DNA of 32,588 nucleotides from a virus: positions 1 through 32,588 of the IMG/VR virus record IMGVR_UViG_3300021185_000469. One strand, given 5' to 3'. The notes under the pieces are model-generated. The model worked only from the letters and a program-made list of their open reading frames with translations, did not search any database and was not told the DNA's origin. Made by a program: the position numbers and the translations under genes. Positions 15,247 through 28,975 of the stretch are shown piece after piece. Every line of letters starts with the position of its first letter. The first letter of the stretch is position 1.

Positions 15247-16015
15247 TTAGTTTTCTGTTTTAACATCTTTGTCTCTAATTCGTTCTTCTCCTTTTCAAAC
15301 TCTAACCAAGTTAGACATTCGGAAGCTGATAGTTTTGTAATCTCTTTAAACTTTGTGATATCTCCTTTAGCGATTGCATATATTGATTGATACCATCCCC
15401 ATTTGCTTCCAAATGATCCTTCAGCTCCTGATCCTCCATCAACTCCTTGGTTAAAGAGTCCGCTAAATATCCCGACAAAACGTTCCCTAAACGATAAAAA
15501 AAAACAATCGCACCTAAAGCTACGTTTACAGGTGAATCCTTCATTATCTCCGAGTACTTGTCTGTACCTTCATAATCCTCTATCAAGTACAAATCACCCT
15601 TACGGAAGGTTATAGGTCTATACAATACAGCCATAGCCTTATGCATATTATCCCAATCACCTATATAATTATCTAAGTCAATAAACTCCCCTAGTGTTAT
15701 ATCATCTAACTTTGGTATAAAACCAAACGTTACACTGTCACCTTTAGGGTCTGTTAAAGTAAAGTCTCTTTGTAGAGGTGTACTCTCTTTAAATATGTCT
15801 ACAATATGGTTTATGATAAAACTAAATTTAGCTAAAGGTAAATTATAAGCCTCTTTCATAGTTACACCACAAAATATCTCTAGCACCTTAAGATTCATAA
15901 ATTCCATATCTTCCGAATCTTCTTTACCCTCCATAACTTTAAGATACTTCTGGTACTGTTGTAGTGTGATAGCGGACAGGTCTTTTGGTATTTCTAATGT
16001 AAATTTCTGACTCAT
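15243..16015 (-). CDS. Tail assembly chaperone, -1 frameshift product (gpGT-like)
   Basis: If ribosomes slip one base back at 15497, the shared 173 residues are joined to 84 more: LSFRERFVGIFSGLFNQGVD, then GSKWGWYQSIYAIAKGDITK and LTWLEFEKEKNELETK. The KWGWYxSIYxIAxGDITKF motif is the classic GT (T-domain) part of siphophage tail chaperones, and the frame ends with a TGA overlapping the terminator start by ATGA. The fusion would be 257 aa. Together with the in-phase slippery run this is strong evidence for programmed -1 frameshifting. The alternative is a sequence error in the homopolymer, with only one true frame. Confidence 0.72.
15311..16015 (-). CDS. Tail assembly chaperone, zero-frame product (gpG-like)
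   Basis: A 234-aa zero-frame product. The start MSQKFTLEIPKDLSAITLQQ at 16015 is preferred to the in-frame ATG at 16036 (MFSGYIG), because it begins the conserved-looking EIPKDL strand. The region LGEFIDLDNYIGDWDNMHKA (about 110-129) and a C-terminal helical part are typical of phage tail assembly chaperones. At residues 171-173 the message has nine U, where part of the ribosomes can slip to frame -1 to make the longer GT-type form. After the slip the zero frame continues 61 residues to 15311. It assists tape-measure and tube assembly. It is the first gene of the late operon after a non-coding gap. Confidence 0.68.
   Translation of the reverse strand: MSQKFTLEIPKDLSAITLQQYQKYLKVMEGKEDSEDMEFMNLKVLEIFCGVTMKEAYNLPLAKFSFIINHIVDIFKESTPLQRDFTLTDPKGDSVTFGFIPKLDDITLGEFIDLDNYIGDWDNMHKAMAVLYRPITFRKGDLYLIEDYEGTDKYSEIMKDSPVNVALGAIVFFYRLGNVLSGYLADSLTKELMEDQELKDHLEANGDGINQYMQSLKEISQSLKRLQNYQLPNV
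15496..15504 (-). promoter_or_regulatory. Slippery U9 site for -1 ribosomal frameshift
   Basis: The minus strand reads GCG ATT GTT TTT TTT TAT CGT. The in-phase heptamer U UUU UUU lies at 15503-15497, after the codon for Ile. Slipping there by -1 leads from VFF to LSFRER in the extension frame. No downstream pseudoknot was modelled. Confidence 0.7.
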
Positions 16016-16574
16016 ACCTATATAACCACTAAACATATATTCTGTATTTAGCTAGAAAATAAAACACTTTGCATAAAAGTCAGTTATATCCACAGATAAC
16101 CAATAGACCACAACAAGTGGGCTATTAAATCTATAGCAAACTATATCTTTAGAGAACTCTAGGTTATCATACACCCCAAGTCAGAAAAGCCCTAACTATA
16201 TTCTTTTCTCAAGCCTCCCTTATATTTAAATTATTATTACTATATTTGAAATGTACCCTCATATGTGGTGCATTTTTTTAGATTTTAGTTTTTATAGTTA
16301 ATTGATTAGACCCTCCCTTAATATTAGGAGGGTTTTTTCGTTTATTCCAAAAGTGTCTGATTTTCCAAAACCTGATACCTCAACCCCACCGTTATTCATT
16401 TTACGTCAATTTAAGCAATTTAGCCTCAAAATGGACCTTAGGTATTAAAATATCTTTAGAGTCTCTTAGGAGCGCTGTGAGGGGGCTTAAATAGAGGGTG
16501 AAAAAGGGAAGATCGAGCGCACCTAGTAAAATTAACCTATTTGTAAATCAACAAATTAACTTTAAAATAAATCC
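16016..16574. other. Non-coding gap before the late operon
   Basis: About 560 bp without a convincing gene lie between the terminator of the GP88 cassette and the late tail genes. It must contain the late promoter, but no clear minus-strand TAnnTTTG box was found; the nearest are TAtagTTTG with one base too many near 16135. It holds a plus-strand TATATTTG box at 16241, a plus-strand terminator at 16310-16338, a near-match to a DnaA box (ATATCCACA, near 16089), and short inverted repeats. The late promoter may be recognised by the phage sigma-like factor. Confidence 0.55.
16310..16338 (+). terminator. Plus-strand intrinsic terminator without a plus-strand gene
   Basis: ACCCTCC (16310-16316) pairs with GGAGGGT (16327-16333) and runs into six T on the plus strand. 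No T run follows in the other direction, so it acts on rightward transcripts. A plus-strand TATATTTG box 62 bp before the stem may start a short RNA. Confidence 0.65.
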
Positions 16575-18364: not shown

Positions 18365-18679
18365 TTAAAGGCTTTTATTAATTTGTTTAATATTGTTTAT
18401 ACTTTCATTTATTATAAGATCATTAATAAAGTGTTCCTTTCCTTTAATCTTTACACTTATCAAAGTTGATAAATTTATAAAACGATAATCTTTAGCTTTT
18501 AGATCGTAAACAGGTAGCAAGTTTCTGGCTATTGGATCAAAACTTAACCCTTTACCATTAGTAAACTTCTTTACATTAGTTCGGCAATTGATTAAACGCC
18601 TTGACCCGTCTTTTTTGATAAATTGAGCTGTAAATATTTTACCGCTTGTAATTTCCTGGAATAATTGTTCTTTGTTCAT
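18365..18679 (-). CDS. SH3 beta-barrel protein (DUF2693-like)
   Basis: A 104-aa protein in which residues about 15-85 read IFTAQFIKKDGSRRLINCRT, then KGLSFDPIARNLLPVYDLKA and YRFINLSTLISVKIKGKEH. This F-x-V-x-FIKKDGxxRxxNCR plus YxxINLxTL pattern is that of the small SH3-fold proteins (DUF2693) often found in Bacteroidota mobile elements and phages. The role is unknown; a nucleic-acid-binding or host-modulating function is a guess. The helical C-terminus adds about 15 residues. Confidence 0.65.
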   Translation of the reverse strand: MNKEQLFQEITSGKIFTAQFIKKDGSRRLINCRTNVKKFTNGKGLSFDPIARNLLPVYDLKAKDYRFINLSTLISVKIKGKEHFINDLIINESINNIKQINKSL

Positions 18680-18698
18680 TTCTTTAGTTTTTAATAGA

Positions 18699-18794
18699 TT
18701 AAATAATAGCTCTTATAATTTGCCCAATAATATAGGCTAAAAATAAAATTGTAAAGATTAAAGTAAATTGATTAAGTAGTTTTAGTAGTTTCAT
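18699..18794 (-). CDS. Tiny membrane protein, 31 aa
   Basis: The frame MKLLKLLNQFTLIFTILFLA continuing YIIGQIIRAII is a single hydrophobic helix with a basic N-end. It is the first gene after the promoter at 18823-18855, with a leader of about 23 nt. Phage membrane peptides in early cassettes often act on the host envelope, but the role here is unknown. The clear promoter spacing supports translation. Confidence 0.5.
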   Translation of the reverse strand: MKLLKLLNQFTLIFTILFLAYIIGQIIRAII

Positions 18795-18822
18795 TTGTTT
18801 TGTGTTATTGGTTAAACTTAAT

Positions 18823-18855
18823 CAAAGATAATAAATTTTTTTAATTAACTAACAA
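18823..18855 (-). promoter_or_regulatory. Bacteroidota-type promoter of the GP88 cassette
   Basis: On the minus strand TTG (18855-18853), a 22-bp spacer and TATCTTTG (18830-18823) match TTG-N17-23-TAnnTTTG. The start of transcription would be near 18817, just ahead of the 31-aa gene. The cassette ends at the terminator at 16575-16612. Confidence 0.65.
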
Positions 18856-19116
18856 TTAACTAACAAATATTAAAATATTTTTTTCCCTATAATTAAGGAA
18901 CGCACACGAATAACAAAAACTTTTTTATTGTGCAAGGGAAATGAAACTTTTTTAACCTATCAATTATAACTTTTTTTGTGTACTAATAAAAACAACGTGA
19001 AACCTATTTTAAGACGTTTTAAGAGATTCTATACCTTTTTAGGTATAACCCTACATAAAAGAAATTTGAGGGGCTTAAATCGTTTACTTGTAAAATGCAA
19101 TCAAAGGGCAAAAAAA
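18856..19116. other. AT-rich non-coding stretch
   Basis: This AT-rich interval lies between the cassette promoter and the iteron array. It contains several direct copies of AACTAACAA-like words near 18848-18866, long T runs near 18951-18977, a hairpin TATACC/GGTATA at 19030-19047, and a degenerate repeat unit around 19003-19025 (TTTAAGACGTTTTAAGAG). No coding frame is convincing. Together with the array it looks like a possible replication origin, but this is unproven. Confidence 0.45.
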
Positions 19117-19222
19117 CCTACTGCGTTTAAGAGCCTACTGCGTTTAACGATACCTACTGCGTTTAAGAAGACCCACTATGTTTAAGAACCTACTGCGTTC
19201 AAGAGGGTACTGCGTTTAAGAG
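19117..19222. repeat. Six iteron-like direct repeats (CCTACTGCGTTTAAGA)
   Basis: Six copies of CCTACTGCGTTTAAGA stand in a row, with starts near 19117, 19134, 19153, 19172, 19189 and 19206, a period of 16-20 bp. Copies four (CCCACTATGTTTAAGA) and five (GCGTTCAAGA) have changes. The array ends exactly at the terminase stop codon. Such arrays bind initiator or terminase proteins in other replicons. It is not a CRISPR array: the spacers are only 1-4 bp and the units are short. Confidence 0.85.
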
Positions 19223-20431
19223 TTATCGAATGACGTAACTTCCTTTATTTATATTCTTTAAGTAATACTGAATACCATACCTCATACTATCAAGATGGTG
19301 ATTCCATTTATCGATTGGTCTTTCGTTGCGACTGTGCCAAACATAATTGTTAAGCTCCTTAATTAACTCTGTAGATTCAGGGTCAACAACCAAATCGTAA
19401 TCCTGTATCAAGGCTATACCAGTTAGTATGCTACCTTGCTTCTTTATTGTAGGTTTAATATTACAATATATCTTCAGCTCCTGTATAAGTCTAGGCTCTG
19501 CACTATCACAAATAATAAGATTCTCACCAGCATATCTCCTATTTAGCTCACCTATCTCTTTTGTAGACAAACCTACTTTACAGTACTGTGTCTTTAAATA
19601 TATCTTCTTCCTATCCTTATCTATAGCCATCTTCAGAAGGACCGTAGGATCGACTGAAAACCCAAAATCTTGACCATATATATAAGGTAAATACTCATTA
19701 AAAGCATCAATACTCCATCTCGTAAAAACAACTCCCTCTGCTTTATCTAACCAACCACCTAATATCTGGTGATTATACCTATCAGGTCTACGTCTACGAA
19801 TATCCTCTATCTGTTCTAGAAAAGAGTCTGACAGGTGATCTAAGTTATCTTTAAAGGTAGTATGTATATAAGTTACATTATCCTTCCAACCATTATAACC
19901 TCCATTAATACCTTTAGCTGCAAAGAACCTCTGGTATATCCAGTGTTCCTTAGTAGTAGGGTTAAGTATTAAAATAACCCTGTTCTGCTTAGACTTAGAA
20001 CGTACAGACTGATCAATCTTATCAAAGTCATCTTCATTAATAAGTTCCTCTGCTTCATCCAATACAAAGGTAGTAACCCCTTGTAGGGACTTTAGAGCAG
20101 CAGTCTGGTTACCTGCTGAAGTTTTGATACCCCTAAACATTATAGAGCTTCCTGTAGAGATATTTATAATCTCATCTTTGGTTATTCTGAAATGCTGAGC
20201 AATACCATAAAGCTCAATCTTTTCTATAAACTCAGGGATAATAGAATTAGCTGTAGAGGTCATAGTATATCGAGTAAACAATATCTTATGACCTTTCTCC
20301 ATAGTAAGCAGTGCAAGGAAAGACGTAACTCCAAAAGACTTACCACTACCCCTCCCACCAGTAGTTACAAAATACCTACTGTCATTACCTAGTGCTTGAT
20401 ATTTATCGTTTAACTGAGGTGTTTTCAACAC
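19223..20431 (-). CDS. terL: Terminase large subunit
   Basis: A 402-aa packaging ATPase/nuclease. Walker A is GGRGSGKS (25-32), Walker B TFVLDEAEE (121-129), and the RNase-H-like nuclease triad is visible as Asp255 in GQDFGFSVDPT, Asp309 in IICDSAEP and Asp381 in HHLDSMRY. The length and motif order fit Terminase_3 (PBSX-type). The protein pumps DNA into the prohead at the portal and makes the end cut. The start is a GTG at 20431 just after a TAA in the same frame; a TTG follows at once (20428). The 5' end overlaps the 45-aa gene by 29 bp. The iteron array follows directly on the stop. Confidence 0.92.
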   Translation of the reverse strand: MLKTPQLNDKYQALGNDSRYFVTTGGRGSGKSFGVTSFLALLTMEKGHKILFTRYTMTSTANSIIPEFIEKIELYGIAQHFRITKDEIINISTGSSIMFRGIKTSAGNQTAALKSLQGVTTFVLDEAEELINEDDFDKIDQSVRSKSKQNRVILILNPTTKEHWIYQRFFAAKGINGGYNGWKDNVTYIHTTFKDNLDHLSDSFLEQIEDIRRRRPDRYNHQILGGWLDKAEGVVFTRWSIDAFNEYLPYIYGQDFGFSVDPTVLLKMAIDKDRKKIYLKTQYCKVGLSTKEIGELNRRYAGENLIICDSAEPRLIQELKIYCNIKPTIKKQGSILTGIALIQDYDLVVDPESTELIKELNNYVWHSRNERPIDKWNHHLDSMRYGIQYYLKNINKGSYVIR

Positions 20432-20540
20432 TTAACTTTCTAAATTTAACAGGTAACCCCTTACCGTCTGGATTGTATCTATAACCTAGTATAGGGTTTA
20501 GTCCATAATCCCACCAATTCTCTGGAAATTCCTTATTCAT
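20403..20540 (-). CDS. Small protein between terminase subunits, 45 aa
   Basis: The frame MNKEFPENWWDYGLNPILGY ends RKLSVENTSVKR. It starts 8 bp inside the terS-like gene and runs 29 bp into terL, so translation from one gene to the next would be linked. A WWDYGLNP motif suggests a specific fold or binding site, but no family is known. The two-sided overlap with terminase genes suggests co-expression. Confidence 0.6.
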   Translation of the reverse strand: MNKEFPENWWDYGLNPILGYRYNPDGKGLPVKFRKLSVENTSVKR

Positions 20541-20919
20541 CTGTAATGTCTATTATATCGTTATTGTTATCTTCTTGGTTTCCTGCGAACAGGTTTTTTA
20601 TATTTATATTTACTTTAGGCTTATCTCCACTTAGTCTAGCTTCGTCAGGCTTTCCATACTTATATTCAAACAAGAGCTTCATATGTGGAAAAGAATCCTT
20701 TGCTTGTTCAGCAAGAGACTCCCAAGCCTCTGTCTCAGAGCCAAATACTTTCTGCATAGCGTTCAAAGCATATATCCCTACCCTATCCTTCTTCGCCTTG
20801 TTAATAGCACTAGGAGTGGCTACAACAGGTTTATTTACCTTGTCTCCTTTCTTCCTACCATTATTACGTCTGCCATCTGTGGCCTTTACGAACTTCCTTT
20901 CTTTTGGTTTTCTACCCAT
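20533..20919 (-). CDS. Probable terminase small subunit
   Basis: A 128-aa protein from the ATG at 20919 (MGRKPKERKFVKATDGRRNN). The longer upstream frame (ATG-like at 21021) overlaps the previous gene fully and looks spurious. A basic N-terminus (DNA binding) is followed by a helical core (AMQKVFGSETEAWESLAEQA, KLLFEYKYGKPDEARL) and an acidic tail DNNNDIIDITDE that could contact TerL. The architecture and the place just ahead of terL fit a small terminase that recognises pac or cos. There is no diagnostic HTH, so the call is moderate. Confidence 0.6.
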   Translation of the reverse strand: MGRKPKERKFVKATDGRRNNGRKKGDKVNKPVVATPSAINKAKKDRVGIYALNAMQKVFGSETEAWESLAEQAKDSFPHMKLLFEYKYGKPDEARLSGDKPKVNINIKNLFAGNQEDNNNDIIDITDE

Positions 20920-21180: not shown

Positions 21181-21705
21181 CTACACTAAATCAAATTCAC
21201 CACTTTTTATTCTCTTAGGATCAACACGAAGCACTCTTGACTTCAAGAAGTTATATTTGTTGAGTAACGTGTCTAATGCTTCAAATGTAGTTCTAGGCTC
21301 AAGAATAGAACCATCCTCTTCTTCAATCTTTGATAAGATATCATTAAGTCTAGATTCCAACCTCTTATACTGCTTCTCATAAAACCCTTCTGCTGATACT
21401 GACTTCTCAGCCAGTTCCTTATCTAAGGATATTGCGTGTTTAAATCTACTCTCTAAGGTTTCGTAATCCCTTTTCATTTGAGCATCAAACTCAAGCCATT
21501 CAGATAGCTTTCTTTGAGCGTAAAGAACAGTGGCGTGATCTCTCCCTACACTTCTTCCTATAGACTCTAAGCTCATTTTTGTGTTATCTCTAAGTATCTT
21601 GAAATAAATAGCCCTAGCCTCAACGTGAGTTCTTAGTCTAGTATTCTTATTCAATTCTACCTTGTAGTAGTCCTCTACTAATCCTTTTACTAAATCTGTA
21701 ATCAT
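21181..21705 (-). CDS. Stand-alone DnaA domain IV-like DNA-binding protein
   Basis: A 174-aa protein whose first 70 residues match DnaA domain IV: VKGLVEDYYKVELNKNTRLR, then VEARAIYFKILRDNTKMSLE and SIGRSVGRDHATVLYAQRKL. The GRDHxTVLxA sequence is the DnaA signature that contacts the DnaA box. The AAA+ part of DnaA is absent; the remaining 100 residues are helical/coiled. It may recruit host replication proteins to a phage origin, compete with host DnaA or regulate transcription. It lies in the replication/packaging transition, upstream of terminase genes. The domain call is sure; the role is inference. Confidence 0.85.
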   Translation of the reverse strand: MITDLVKGLVEDYYKVELNKNTRLRTHVEARAIYFKILRDNTKMSLESIGRSVGRDHATVLYAQRKLSEWLEFDAQMKRDYETLESRFKHAISLDKELAEKSVSAEGFYEKQYKRLESRLNDILSKIEEEDGSILEPRTTFEALDTLLNKYNFLKSRVLRVDPKRIKSGEFDLV

Positions 21706-24338: not shown

Positions 24339-24454
24339 ATCTTATTATTTAAAAAATACATATACATATTAATTATCTCCCTAGAAGTCTTACCTTCTAT
24401 GTTATGGCACATAACGTTGTACCAATCTAAAAAATCTAATAATTCATCTTCCAT
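24335..24454 (-). CDS. Small acidic protein, 39 aa
   Basis: The frame MEDELLDFLDWYNVMCHNIE ends IINMYMYFLNNKI. It is joined by TAATG to the sigma-like gene and by ATGA to the 144-aa gene, so both ends are coupled. It is helical. The role is unknown, but position next to the sigma-like gene makes a regulatory partner possible. Confidence 0.58.
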   Translation of the reverse strand: MEDELLDFLDWYNVMCHNIEGKTSREIINMYMYFLNNKI

Positions 24455-25026
24455 TAGTCCTCATATATTAACTCAAAATCTCCATTTAAATAATCCTCAA
24501 AGTCTTCTCCAAATTTACTTCTAATAATATCTTTATAGTTTTTACAGCTATTAAAAATAGAAGTGACTGAGATATTAGTTTCGTTAGCCAGCTTCCTAAG
24601 ACTTAAATCCGTATTGTAATATAACTTAAACAGTTTTTTGTCATACCAGTAATCCCAAGACTCTACCTCTTCGTTTATCTTAGCTAAAATATACTCCTGA
24701 GCCTTTTCCTTATCGTAGCTTACCTCTTCATACAAGGCCCAATCTGGAGTATTGAAATTATATTCACCGTCATAGTCATCCATCTTATAAACGACATACT
24801 TGGACTTAGCTTTGTTGTAATCAGTCCATAAATTCTTTAAGGTTATGTAGACGTAAAACCTATTAACTTCAGTTTCATTATACATTATCTTCTCAGGATT
24901 TCCAACATACTTGTTTAATCTAAGATAAGTCTCGTGAACAAAGTCCTCCACGATACTATTGGGGATGCCGATAGACAACCCCATAGATACCCAAATGCTG
25001 TGGTTTTTACTTAGAATCTCTAGCAT
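24454..25026 (-). CDS. Sigma-70-like transcription factor
   Basis: A 190-aa protein with ECF-like regions. Region 2 is at about 22-72 (PNSIVEDFVHETYLRLNKY, then FYVYITLKNLWTDYNKAK). Region 4, a helix-turn-helix, is at about 131-170 (KLFKLYYNTDLSLRKLANET, NISVTSIFNSCKNYKD). It probably redirects host RNA polymerase to middle or late phage promoters, which would explain the lack of a Bacteroidota consensus box in front of the late operon. The linker is acidic. A DNA-binding protein that is not a sigma factor remains possible. Confidence 0.62.
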   Translation of the reverse strand: MLEILSKNHSIWVSMGLSIGIPNSIVEDFVHETYLRLNKYVGNPEKIMYNETEVNRFYVYITLKNLWTDYNKAKSKYVVYKMDDYDGEYNFNTPDWALYEEVSYDKEKAQEYILAKINEEVESWDYWYDKKLFKLYYNTDLSLRKLANETNISVTSIFNSCKNYKDIIRSKFGEDFEDYLNGDFELIYED

Positions 25027-25711: not shown

Positions 25712-25795
25712 TTAATCTCTATTTGATTCTTTATGTTGCACTAAGTTAAACAAAATAACTAACACAATTATAAAAAAAACTATATATATAATCAT
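25712..25795 (-). CDS. Tiny membrane protein, 27 aa
   Basis: The frame MIIYIVFFIIVLVILFNLVQ ends HKESNRD. It begins in an ATGA overlap with the ATPase stop and ends right against the TTG of the nuclease. It is a single transmembrane helix with a polar end. It resembles other small membrane frames in the operon. The function is unknown. Confidence 0.48.
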   Translation of the reverse strand: MIIYIVFFIIVLVILFNLVQHKESNRD

Positions 25796-26619
25796 ACCTT
25801 TAAGTATTTATCTTTATCTATCTGATCAGGGATCGATTCTAATATAGAAGGTAAACCGCTTGTGTCTACTTTAAACGCAAAATCATCAAACGAATAACCC
25901 CTACTTCTTTTACATTTAGCTACTGCTATACTTTTATCCTCTGTTAACTCTAAGGCTATTTGTGTTTCAGCCTTTTTCTCTAAAAAAGAACCCAAGTGTC
26001 CCGTAGGCTTTTCAGAGTTCCAATTAGAATGGATTGCTGTTATTATATGAATATTTAACTCCTGTGTCCACTTCATAAGATATTGAACGAGCTTGCTTGA
26101 TTGTATCAAATCATTACTGTCTAAAACTAAATCAGCAATACCGTCTATTATTACTAACCCAATATTGTCAGTATTGTATAAATGCCAATCTATAAAGTCT
26201 AATCGTTCAGGTGCAGAGTAAGCTCTTAAAGCGTAAGTATAGTAATCTTCTGTAGTGCCACAGATATCATTAACCCTACGAAAAACCTTCTGAGCGTGGA
26301 ATGTACTTTGCTCTGTATCGTAGTGTATTAACTTCTTACCTTCTCTGTGTCCTAACATATCGCCTGTTCTCTGTGTCTTACCCCCAACATAAGCCGAAGC
26401 TATAAGTGAAAGGAAGAACGTCTTTTTCGATTTCGGAGGAGCCTGTACAAAGCTGAAATTCCCGTAAGTGGCAATACCAGTGGGGAGAGGATTATAACCA
26501 CCACTAAGGCCATAAGAAAGGGCAAGGGGCGGTTGCGATACATTTCCAAGAGGATCGACGTAGCTACTTTCCAAGATTGCTTTATATTTCTGCTCATAAT
26601 CTATCTTTAATTGGTTCAT
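25792..26619 (-). CDS. RecA/RepA-like ATPase, probable replicative helicase or loader
   Basis: A 275-aa protein with a RecA-like fold. A strand and loop, TYGNFSFVQAPPKSKKTFFL (50s-70), stand at the Walker A place; Walker B is NIGLVIIDGIADL (152-164); HIITAIHSNWN and GHLGSFLEKKAE follow as in RepA/AAA_25 ATPases. The loop APPKSKKT lacks the two glycines of a standard GxxxxGKT. It probably unwinds DNA or loads the helicase as part of the replication group with SSB-like and ERF proteins. The start ATG overlaps the 146-aa gene by 26 bp. Confidence 0.7.
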   Translation of the reverse strand: MNQLKIDYEQKYKAILESSYVDPLGNVSQPPLALSYGLSGGYNPLPTGIATYGNFSFVQAPPKSKKTFFLSLIASAYVGGKTQRTGDMLGHREGKKLIHYDTEQSTFHAQKVFRRVNDICGTTEDYYTYALRAYSAPERLDFIDWHLYNTDNIGLVIIDGIADLVLDSNDLIQSSKLVQYLMKWTQELNIHIITAIHSNWNSEKPTGHLGSFLEKKAETQIALELTEDKSIAVAKCKRSRGYSFDDFAFKVDTSGLPSILESIPDQIDKDKYLKV

Positions 26620-28265: not shown

Positions 28266-28631
28266 TTACGATATTAACCAAATAGATGGTGGTTTTAAAT
28301 CATCATTATCAACGTGTATATAATCCCTGTGTATACCTATCCTCCTAAATCCTACCATAGATAGAGCTTCAACAATTCTTAATCTGAACTTAGAGTTTAA
28401 ACATCTTATGTGAGCAGCCCTACCAATCAGGTGTGAACTTGTAGTTGCAGCAGAGAATATATTAGTGTTAGCATACTTTGTCCTATATCCACTAAGTATC
28501 TTGAACTCTAGCTTTGCTATATCACGAGCTTCATCTAACATCTCTATAAACTCCCTATCCATATACCTGTATCCACTACCTATTTTATCAGGGGAATCAA
28601 ATTCATCAAAAGTAAAATATTTGTAATCCAT
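28266..28631 (-). CDS. Divergent M15-type peptidase-like protein
   Basis: A 121-aa protein with an M15A layout: FKILSGYRT (43-51), SSHLIGRAAHIR (65-76), GFRRIGIHRDYIHVDND (94-110). The canonical metal triad of SxHxxGxAxD and a later His would be His67, Asp74 and His106, but here residue 74 is His. This is a clear change at a metal ligand, so the enzyme may have altered metal use or be inactive. It is a paralogue of the endolysin at 29410-29766. It has its own terminator and a possible start-proximal promoter. A role as a regulator of the other enzyme or a structural peptidase is open. Confidence 0.7.
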   Translation of the reverse strand: MDYKYFTFDEFDSPDKIGSGYRYMDREFIEMLDEARDIAKLEFKILSGYRTKYANTNIFSAATTSSHLIGRAAHIRCLNSKFRLRIVEALSMVGFRRIGIHRDYIHVDNDDLKPPSIWLIS

Positions 28632-28665: not shown

Positions 28666-28840
28666 AACAGTAGCAGTAAATCTACTATAAAAATTACAAT
28701 ACTTCAGTTGAGATAGCCTGTTGGATCAGATAGTTTTAGATCGTTTGTTTTTCTAGGGGGCTTTTTCTTTTCTTTCTTTTTTCTTCTTTGTAGTTGTTCT
28801 GCTTTCTTTCTTTTCTTTTAAAGCTATTTAACTACTGTGT
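28666..28840. other. Non-coding gap with a polypyrimidine tract
   Basis: This gap lies between the 44-aa basic gene and the second M15 gene. The plus strand has AGTAG/CTACT (hairpin near 28671), a GATC-containing stretch near 28724-28742, GGGGGCTTTTTC, and then about 60 bases of nearly pure pyrimidine up to 28820. No minus-strand frame with a normal start is visible. If the plus-strand promoter works, this is where its RNA would lie. Confidence 0.45.
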
Positions 28841-28975
28841 TTAACGACCCTGTCCTCTATATGTCTTAGAATAGTTCTTAGAGGTCTTTAGAGAGCTTGT
28901 TTTAGACTTAGAGTGTACTCCCTTACGTTTAACTTTATTACTCTTGTTATAATTGTTTATTTGAAGTTTTGCCAT
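28841..28975 (-). CDS. Small basic protein (KRKGVHSKSKTSS / YRGQGR motif), 44 aa
   Basis: The frame MAKLQINNYNKSNKVKRKGV ends KTSKNYSKTYRGQGR. The patterns KRKGVHSKxKxSxLKxSKNY and YRGQGR are recurrent in small proteins of Bacteroidota phages near lysis or structural genes, with unknown role. It is very basic and probably binds nucleic acid or packs in the virion. The ATG overlaps the holin TAA by one base, supporting the start. Confidence 0.65.
   Translation of the reverse strand: MAKLQINNYNKSNKVKRKGVHSKSKTSSLKTSKNYSKTYRGQGR

Follow-up and report, generated by a model that had tools for sequence, protein, structure and literature searches.

The direct repeats beside the large terminase gene (terL) belong to a strongly conserved, one-directional family of sites that lie at gene ends in an uncultured lineage of marine Bacteroidota phages. 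Across the relatives the array keeps its position and orientation, occurs at several loci in most genomes, diverges in concert within a genome and is associated with promoter-bearing gaps, and a gene for a stand-alone DnaA domain IV protein (hereafter DnaA-IV protein) is present in every record checked. Judged from these sequence patterns, the arrays are more suggestive of regulatory sites at which a phage DNA-binding protein acts than of an origin of replication or a packaging signal. We tentatively favour the view that these oriented arrays are bound by a protein, probably the DnaA-IV protein, and serve to separate or control operons.

The array in the window and its surroundings

The window, that is, the whole stretch of DNA analysed, is a complete IMG/VR record of 32588 bases with nearly all genes on the - strand. 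It comes from a tailed phage with a PBSX-family TerL, whose nearest annotated cultured relatives are the Nonlabens phages P12024L and P12024S (54% amino-acid identity); its Bacteroidota relatives and promoter type point to a Bacteroidota host. The array occupies 19117-19221 and consists of six units of CCTACTGCGTTTAAGA as read on the + strand, or TCTTAAACGCAGTAGG in the direction of transcription. The units start at 19117, 19134, 19153, 19172, 19189 and 19206, with start-to-start steps of 17, 19, 19, 17 and 17, in agreement with the 16-20 bp spacing given in the earlier note. The TRF score of the array (122-136) was the top value in the window, and ACTGCGTTTAAGA with up to two mismatches matched six times, always inside the array, while 100 dinucleotide shuffles gave a mean of 1.0 match and never reached six; the six units of about 16 bp claimed beside the terL stop are thus present far above chance. 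The terL stop codon lies at 19223-19225 and the nearest unit ends at 19221, leaving a gap of 3 nt in the direction of transcription. All six units, which are closely spaced direct repeats in a single orientation as in an iteron-type origin, are kept in the close relative G005. A degenerate seventh unit proposed near 19003 did not hold up, as it scored below the threshold and ACGTCTTAAAATAGG at that place is altered to TCGTCTCCAAATAGC in G005.

19206-19221, - strand: unit 1 (counted in the direction of transcription), TCTTAAACGCAGTACC, a variant with a CC tail, 3 nt past the terL stop
19189-19204, - strand: unit 2, TCTTGAACGCAGTAGG
19172-19187, - strand: unit 3, TCTTAAACATAGTGGG
19153-19168, - strand: unit 4, TCTTAAACGCAGTAGG
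19134-19149, - strand: unit 5, CGTTAAACGCAGTAGG
19117-19132, - strand: unit 6, TCTTAAACGCAGTAGG
19223-20431, - strand: terL, PBSX-family large terminase subunit (phrog_2, E 2e-49)
18680-19116, no strand: AT-rich gap from the array to the next listed gene (18365-18679), from base composition
18823-18855, - strand: candidate Bacteroidota-type promoter (TTG, spacer, TATCTTTG), a consensus match only
18843-18866, no strand: 11-bp direct repeat AATTAACTAAC overlapping the promoter candidate, from a repeat search
28831-28847, - strand: one degenerate site, TTAAACACAGTAG, coinciding with the stop codon of a small ORF that precedes gene 28266-28631

The G+C content was 24-30% in 1-kb windows around the gap, compared to about 34% overall, which bears out the AT-rich non-coding neighbour described previously; an AT-rich region adjoining the repeats is likewise a feature of iteron-type origins. 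The promoter candidate (18855-18823) is located about 286 nt downstream of the array, ahead of a 31-codon ORF, and the repeat that overlaps it may be regarded as Pho-box-like by its 11-bp period. No intrinsic terminator (hairpin followed by a U run) was found at 18680-19220 on either strand, and this identity was rejected for the window array. The junction that holds the degenerate site at 28831-28847 carries strong sites in some relatives. The small ORF there (28831-28975) ends in YRGQGR with its stop coinciding with the site, and a similar ORF end together with strong sites was observed in G023.

Conservation and divergence of the site family

The exact 16-mer was found in at least 120 IMG/VR stretches, where some of the single matches will be due to chance, and the tandem form was also found in at least 120. 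Among the bacterial and archaeal genomes of 84,980 species the tandem form occurred in only two stretches, at one place in each genome, and an element of host chromosomes was rejected on this ground. One of the two lies in a Segatella copri contig (L246:3700-4090), where a 22-bp repeat that includes TTAAACGCAATAGG is present about 18 times between convergent genes. This is the sole such place in that genome and may be a chance minisatellite. In the other (L247:3543-3576, a Flavobacteriaceae MAG), genes for a tyrosine integrase and a small HTH protein lie near two phage-like units, possibly the remnant of a prophage or satellite.

Among the 71 TerL relatives with enough sequence, 65 had at least two generic units within 900 nt downstream of terL, compared to 2 of 71 on the other strand, and the commonest distances from the terL stop to the array were 3 and 4 nt. 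The recurrence of the same array in relatives, as raised in the earlier note, was thus confirmed beside terL, but most relatives carry one to three extra arrays and isolated sites elsewhere. Two exceptions (L050 and L053) have a diverged array (TTTAACATATTAGG or TTTAACATAGGGG, with steps of about 17 bp) further downstream of terL. A gene for a small Cys-rich, HNH-like protein was observed between terL and the array in L007, L012, L018, L021, L028 and L077. All array-bearing relatives are metagenomic contigs.

The genome-wide distribution was determined in 21 genomes, comprising the window and twenty relatives at full length and oriented like the window. With a position weight matrix, the transcription strand yielded 199 sites and the opposite strand 3, where controls lead one to expect 1.5, and 147 of 203 sites fell in non-coding DNA, which makes up 11.6% of the genomes. 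Since the genes all run one way, transcription orientation is inseparable from genome orientation, and the strand bias alone decides for none of the readings considered below. The genomes of the window's subgroup have a single strong array each, while most of the others have two to four, mainly in the stretch from terL to the counterpart of window gene 15311-16036 (w15311), an interval that leads toward the tail genes; further sites lie before gene w28266 and between w3052 and w2608. The median distance was 4 nt from the upstream stop codon to the array and 178 nt to the next ATG, and in many arrays the TAA of the unit itself serves as the stop codon.

Considering gaps of at least 120 bp, units were present in 36 of the 70 that lie within the terL-to-w15311 interval, compared to 4 of 71 outside it. 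The promoter consensus TTG-N17-23-TAnnTTTG occurred in 12 of 40 unit-bearing gaps versus 9 of 101 others (p 0.003). For an 11-bp TTAAC repeat the corresponding counts were 14 of 40 and 5 of 101 (p 1e-5); these p-values overstate independence because the genomes are related. More generally, the ORF calls are mechanical, several tests drew on overlapping or related genomes, and the thresholds and generic motif patterns were set after the data were looked at. In relatives, TTAAC direct repeats with an 11-bp period, resembling a Pho box, were seen in the stretch from the array to the following gene. Some arrays in G011, G006, G023, G025 and G012 are followed by a palindrome of the type TTTAGAATNATTCTAAA that resembles a Fur-family box.

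In the direction of transcription the site family reads TTAAACGCAGTAGG, with TT[ACT]AA[CT][GA][CT]N[AG]T[AG] tolerated, followed by GG or CC. Where the common motif is missing, relatives carry an altered one at the same place, namely TTCAACATAATGGG in G009 and G010 and TTTAATATNATGGGG after terL in G015 and its allies. The change extends to other loci: G015 has sites of the TTTAATATNATGGGG type after terL, in two more gaps and, as a pair, ahead of the lysis gene. In G009 and G010, too, the altered motif type recurs at a second locus. Such concerted divergence of arrays is expected of one trans-acting reader, but it could instead stem from recombination between arrays. One site lies inside terL, 224 nt before the stop, where the codons AAA CGC AGT GGG are fixed in many genomes while other genomes encode different residues at the same position; this internal site therefore appears to be conserved at the DNA level. 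A family of 14-17 bp sites so conserved and so strictly oriented across a lineage is very probably read by something.

Over all relatives, the unit ended in GG (434) or CC (50), seldom in a mixed pair, and arrays of the G015 type alternate GG and CC units, so that GGGG/CCCC stems are possible. Unit steps were mostly odd (17, 19, 21, 23, 25, 27 and 37) in all relatives; among unique spacers 146 were odd and 23 even, with none of 20, a bias that may come from shared ancestry.

Candidate readers and competing explanations

Two proteins encoded upstream of terL were considered as readers of the array.

21181-21705, - strand: stand-alone DnaA domain IV (Bac_DnaA_C) protein of 174 aa, candidate reader
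20533-20916, - strand: TerS-like protein, encoded where a small terminase subunit would be expected, with weak likeness to DUF5681 and no HTH in its model

The window DnaA-IV protein scored 46.1 bits against PF08299 (curated cut-off 31.5), and its gene was found in 31 of 31 records (the window and 30 relatives), about 1-2.5 kb upstream of terL where mapped. Its AlphaFold model (pLDDT 82, above 90 in the domain) is predicted to have the DnaA domain IV fold, aligning with the DnaA-DNA complexes 3PVP and 1J1V with Z scores of 16.7 and 15.8 (rmsd 1.2 over 90-93 residues). The near-invariant R23, R31 and H57 align with R399, R407 and H434 of Escherichia coli DnaA, and R23 and H57 are kept in at least 90% of 72 sequences; R399 and H434 are base-contacting residues of DnaA (PMC7561715; see also PMC5043019). 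These results agree with the previous suggestion that the DnaA-IV protein is a plausible reader. The gene is absent from P12024L, P12024S, Riemerella phage RAP44 and Bacteroides phage BS-TP2; these four show no array where examined, in that none was seen in P12024L and that the overlap of terL with the following gene in P12024S leaves an array no space. The literature searched for phage DnaA domain IV proteins or for such arrays yielded nothing relevant.

Motif distance did not follow the distance of the DnaA-IV protein or of its recognition helix (partial Mantel r about -0.1, p 0.6-0.9; 20 genomes, low power). It weakly followed that of the TerS-like protein (r 0.26, p 0.012, uncorrected for 13 proteins and with few independent events). 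The latter has a mean column identity of 46%, and its model (pLDDT 71) gave no fold match with Z of 2 or more among the six chains aligned, which says little. The unit matches 7 of 9 positions of the DnaA box TTWTNCACA, a level reached by 11% of shuffles. The DnaA-IV protein is a candidate reader, the best one on sequence and model grounds, even though its recognition helix shows no covariation with the motif and the likeness of the unit to the DnaA box is not significant.

Reading the array as an origin of replication is unlikely in our judgement. The units would then be iterons to which the DnaA-IV protein binds as initiator, the adjoining AT-rich DNA would melt, the AAA_25 helicase or the host replisome would be loaded, and the extra arrays would be secondary origins. 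The iteron-like layout next to AT-rich DNA and the near-universal terL-side array (65/71) fit this reading. So does the co-occurrence of the DnaA-IV protein with an AAA_25 ATPase, both in the lineage and in Olleya phage Harreka_1, together with the absence of both from P12024L and P12024S. This RepA/RadA-like ATPase (25792-26619, just under Pfam's cut-off) also makes incomplete the statement that no initiator other than the DnaA-IV protein is visible. Against an origin, gene ends bear two to four arrays and additional single sites in most relatives outside the window's subgroup, which fits a single origin poorly. The GC skew keeps its sign across the array, and in Harreka_1 and Arctus_1, which encode DnaA-IV proteins, no such array was found, the repeats detected there lying in or near replication genes. 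The origin function proposed in the earlier note was therefore not supported, and neither was its alternative of a packaging site, where a pac- or cosB-like array would be bound by the small terminase subunit and packaging would start beside terL. The one-directional repeats are indeed directly beside the terminase genes, as such a site would be (65 of 71 relatives), and the TerS-like protein is well conserved, its divergence tracking the motif best of the proteins compared, at the uncorrected p given above. However, a pac or cos site is a single recognition region per genome, while most relatives have several arrays and single sites distant from terL. Moreover, the 21 long contigs mapped share no common end at the array, many of them breaking in the tail-fibre-to-portal region, and contig G029 overlaps itself around the array and terL, with 3 versus 4 units, as expected of a circular-map assembly. 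Packaging is accordingly rated as very improbable.

Slightly less improbable is that the units are module-boundary repeats, that is, gene-end homologies used for cassette exchange by Erf-type annealing and homogenised by recombination, with no dedicated reader. Units abut stop codons and often supply them, arrays flank variable genes (including the Cys-rich, HNH-like gene between terL and the array in six loci), an Erf protein is present, and the divergence is concerted; but the exact codons kept at the terL-internal site across genomes and the location of arrays in promoter-bearing gaps point to a reader of the sequence. The lowest probability is given to sites in the 3' untranslated RNA for an RNA-binding protein acting in stability or antitermination. 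The orientation fixed with transcription, the start of the array at the stop codon and an array RNA less structured than its shuffles (z +2.2) would suit such an element, while a terminator-like hairpin lies between terL and the array in G021 and no Rfam match was found for the array. Two related candidates were rejected, a known RNA because of the missing Rfam match and an RNA hairpin element formed by the GG/CC tails because the window array folds worse than shuffles.

The gene-end position, the fixed orientation, the repetition and the promoter-bearing gaps favour a role at operon boundaries. In this model the arrays would stand at the 3' end of one gene and before the regulated promoter of the next, mainly in the terL-to-tail-genes interval. 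A trans-acting protein, most likely the DnaA-IV protein from the operon just upstream of terS/terL, would coat the array. The bound array would then act on transcription as a polar roadblock or insulator, keeping transcription of the terL operon from running on into genes under separate control; alternatively, it would switch the downstream promoter. We infer three steps of this model: a protein as the reader, DnaA-IV as that protein and a transcriptional outcome. The distance from array to promoter is not fixed, and no second element was found at a fixed distance, with no information beyond the unit and 3-4 flanking bases (75 nt downstream and 60 nt upstream covered), which together argue against classical activation. 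Terminator-like hairpins before or after the arrays of some relatives indicate that a terminator role is not uniform. The window also encodes a sigma-factor-like protein (24454-25026), whose region-4-like helix TSIFNSCKNY is strongly conserved in the lineage and changed in G015. A bipartite promoter for this protein was rejected, given that there is no conserved second element and that the steps range from 17 to over 40. A bolder form of the operon-boundary model, about which we are doubtful, is that the DnaA-IV protein and oriented, DnaA-box-like gene-end arrays form polar transcription barriers or switches throughout the lineage, unlike known phage terminators and late activators.

Comparison with known systems

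Knowing the reader would help to explain how transcription, replication or packaging is ordered in these phages, and what purpose is served by stand-alone DnaA domain IV proteins, which are also present in other flavobacterial phages. Fragments of the lineage can moreover be identified by the site family, which serves as their DNA signature.

Iteron arrays of plasmid and phage origins, such as lambda ori and RSF1010 oriV, consist of direct repeats of about 17-20 bp with an AT-rich neighbour and the gene of the binding protein nearby. The phage arrays share the one-orientation direct repeats, the AT-rich neighbour and a DNA-binding protein encoded nearby. They differ in occurring two to four times per genome at gene ends, with single sites in addition, in most relatives, in lying neither inside nor beside a helicase gene, and in being at most putative sites of replication. 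The candidate reader resembles DnaA domain IV in fold (Z about 16 to 1J1V and 3PVP) and in its equivalents of R399, R407 and H434, but lacks the AAA+ domain III and has Ala at the position of T435; the unit, alike to the DnaA box at a non-significant 7 of 9 positions, is 14 bp long with a GG/CC tail.

The Sal-box arrays of rDNA terminators, bound by TTF-I, are oriented repeats of about 18 bp directly after the gene end. The phage arrays are similar in having several oriented copies after a gene end and ahead of the next promoter, whereas they belong to phage DNA transcribed by a bacterial RNA polymerase, with no known relative of TTF-I, and are no more than putative terminators. Late regulators of the RinA/ArpU type in phages of Gram-positive bacteria are small DNA-binding proteins encoded just before terS/terL. 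The DnaA-IV gene, which also encodes a small protein of DNA-binding type, has the same position; its product has a different fold as assigned here, and a role in late regulation would be by analogy only.
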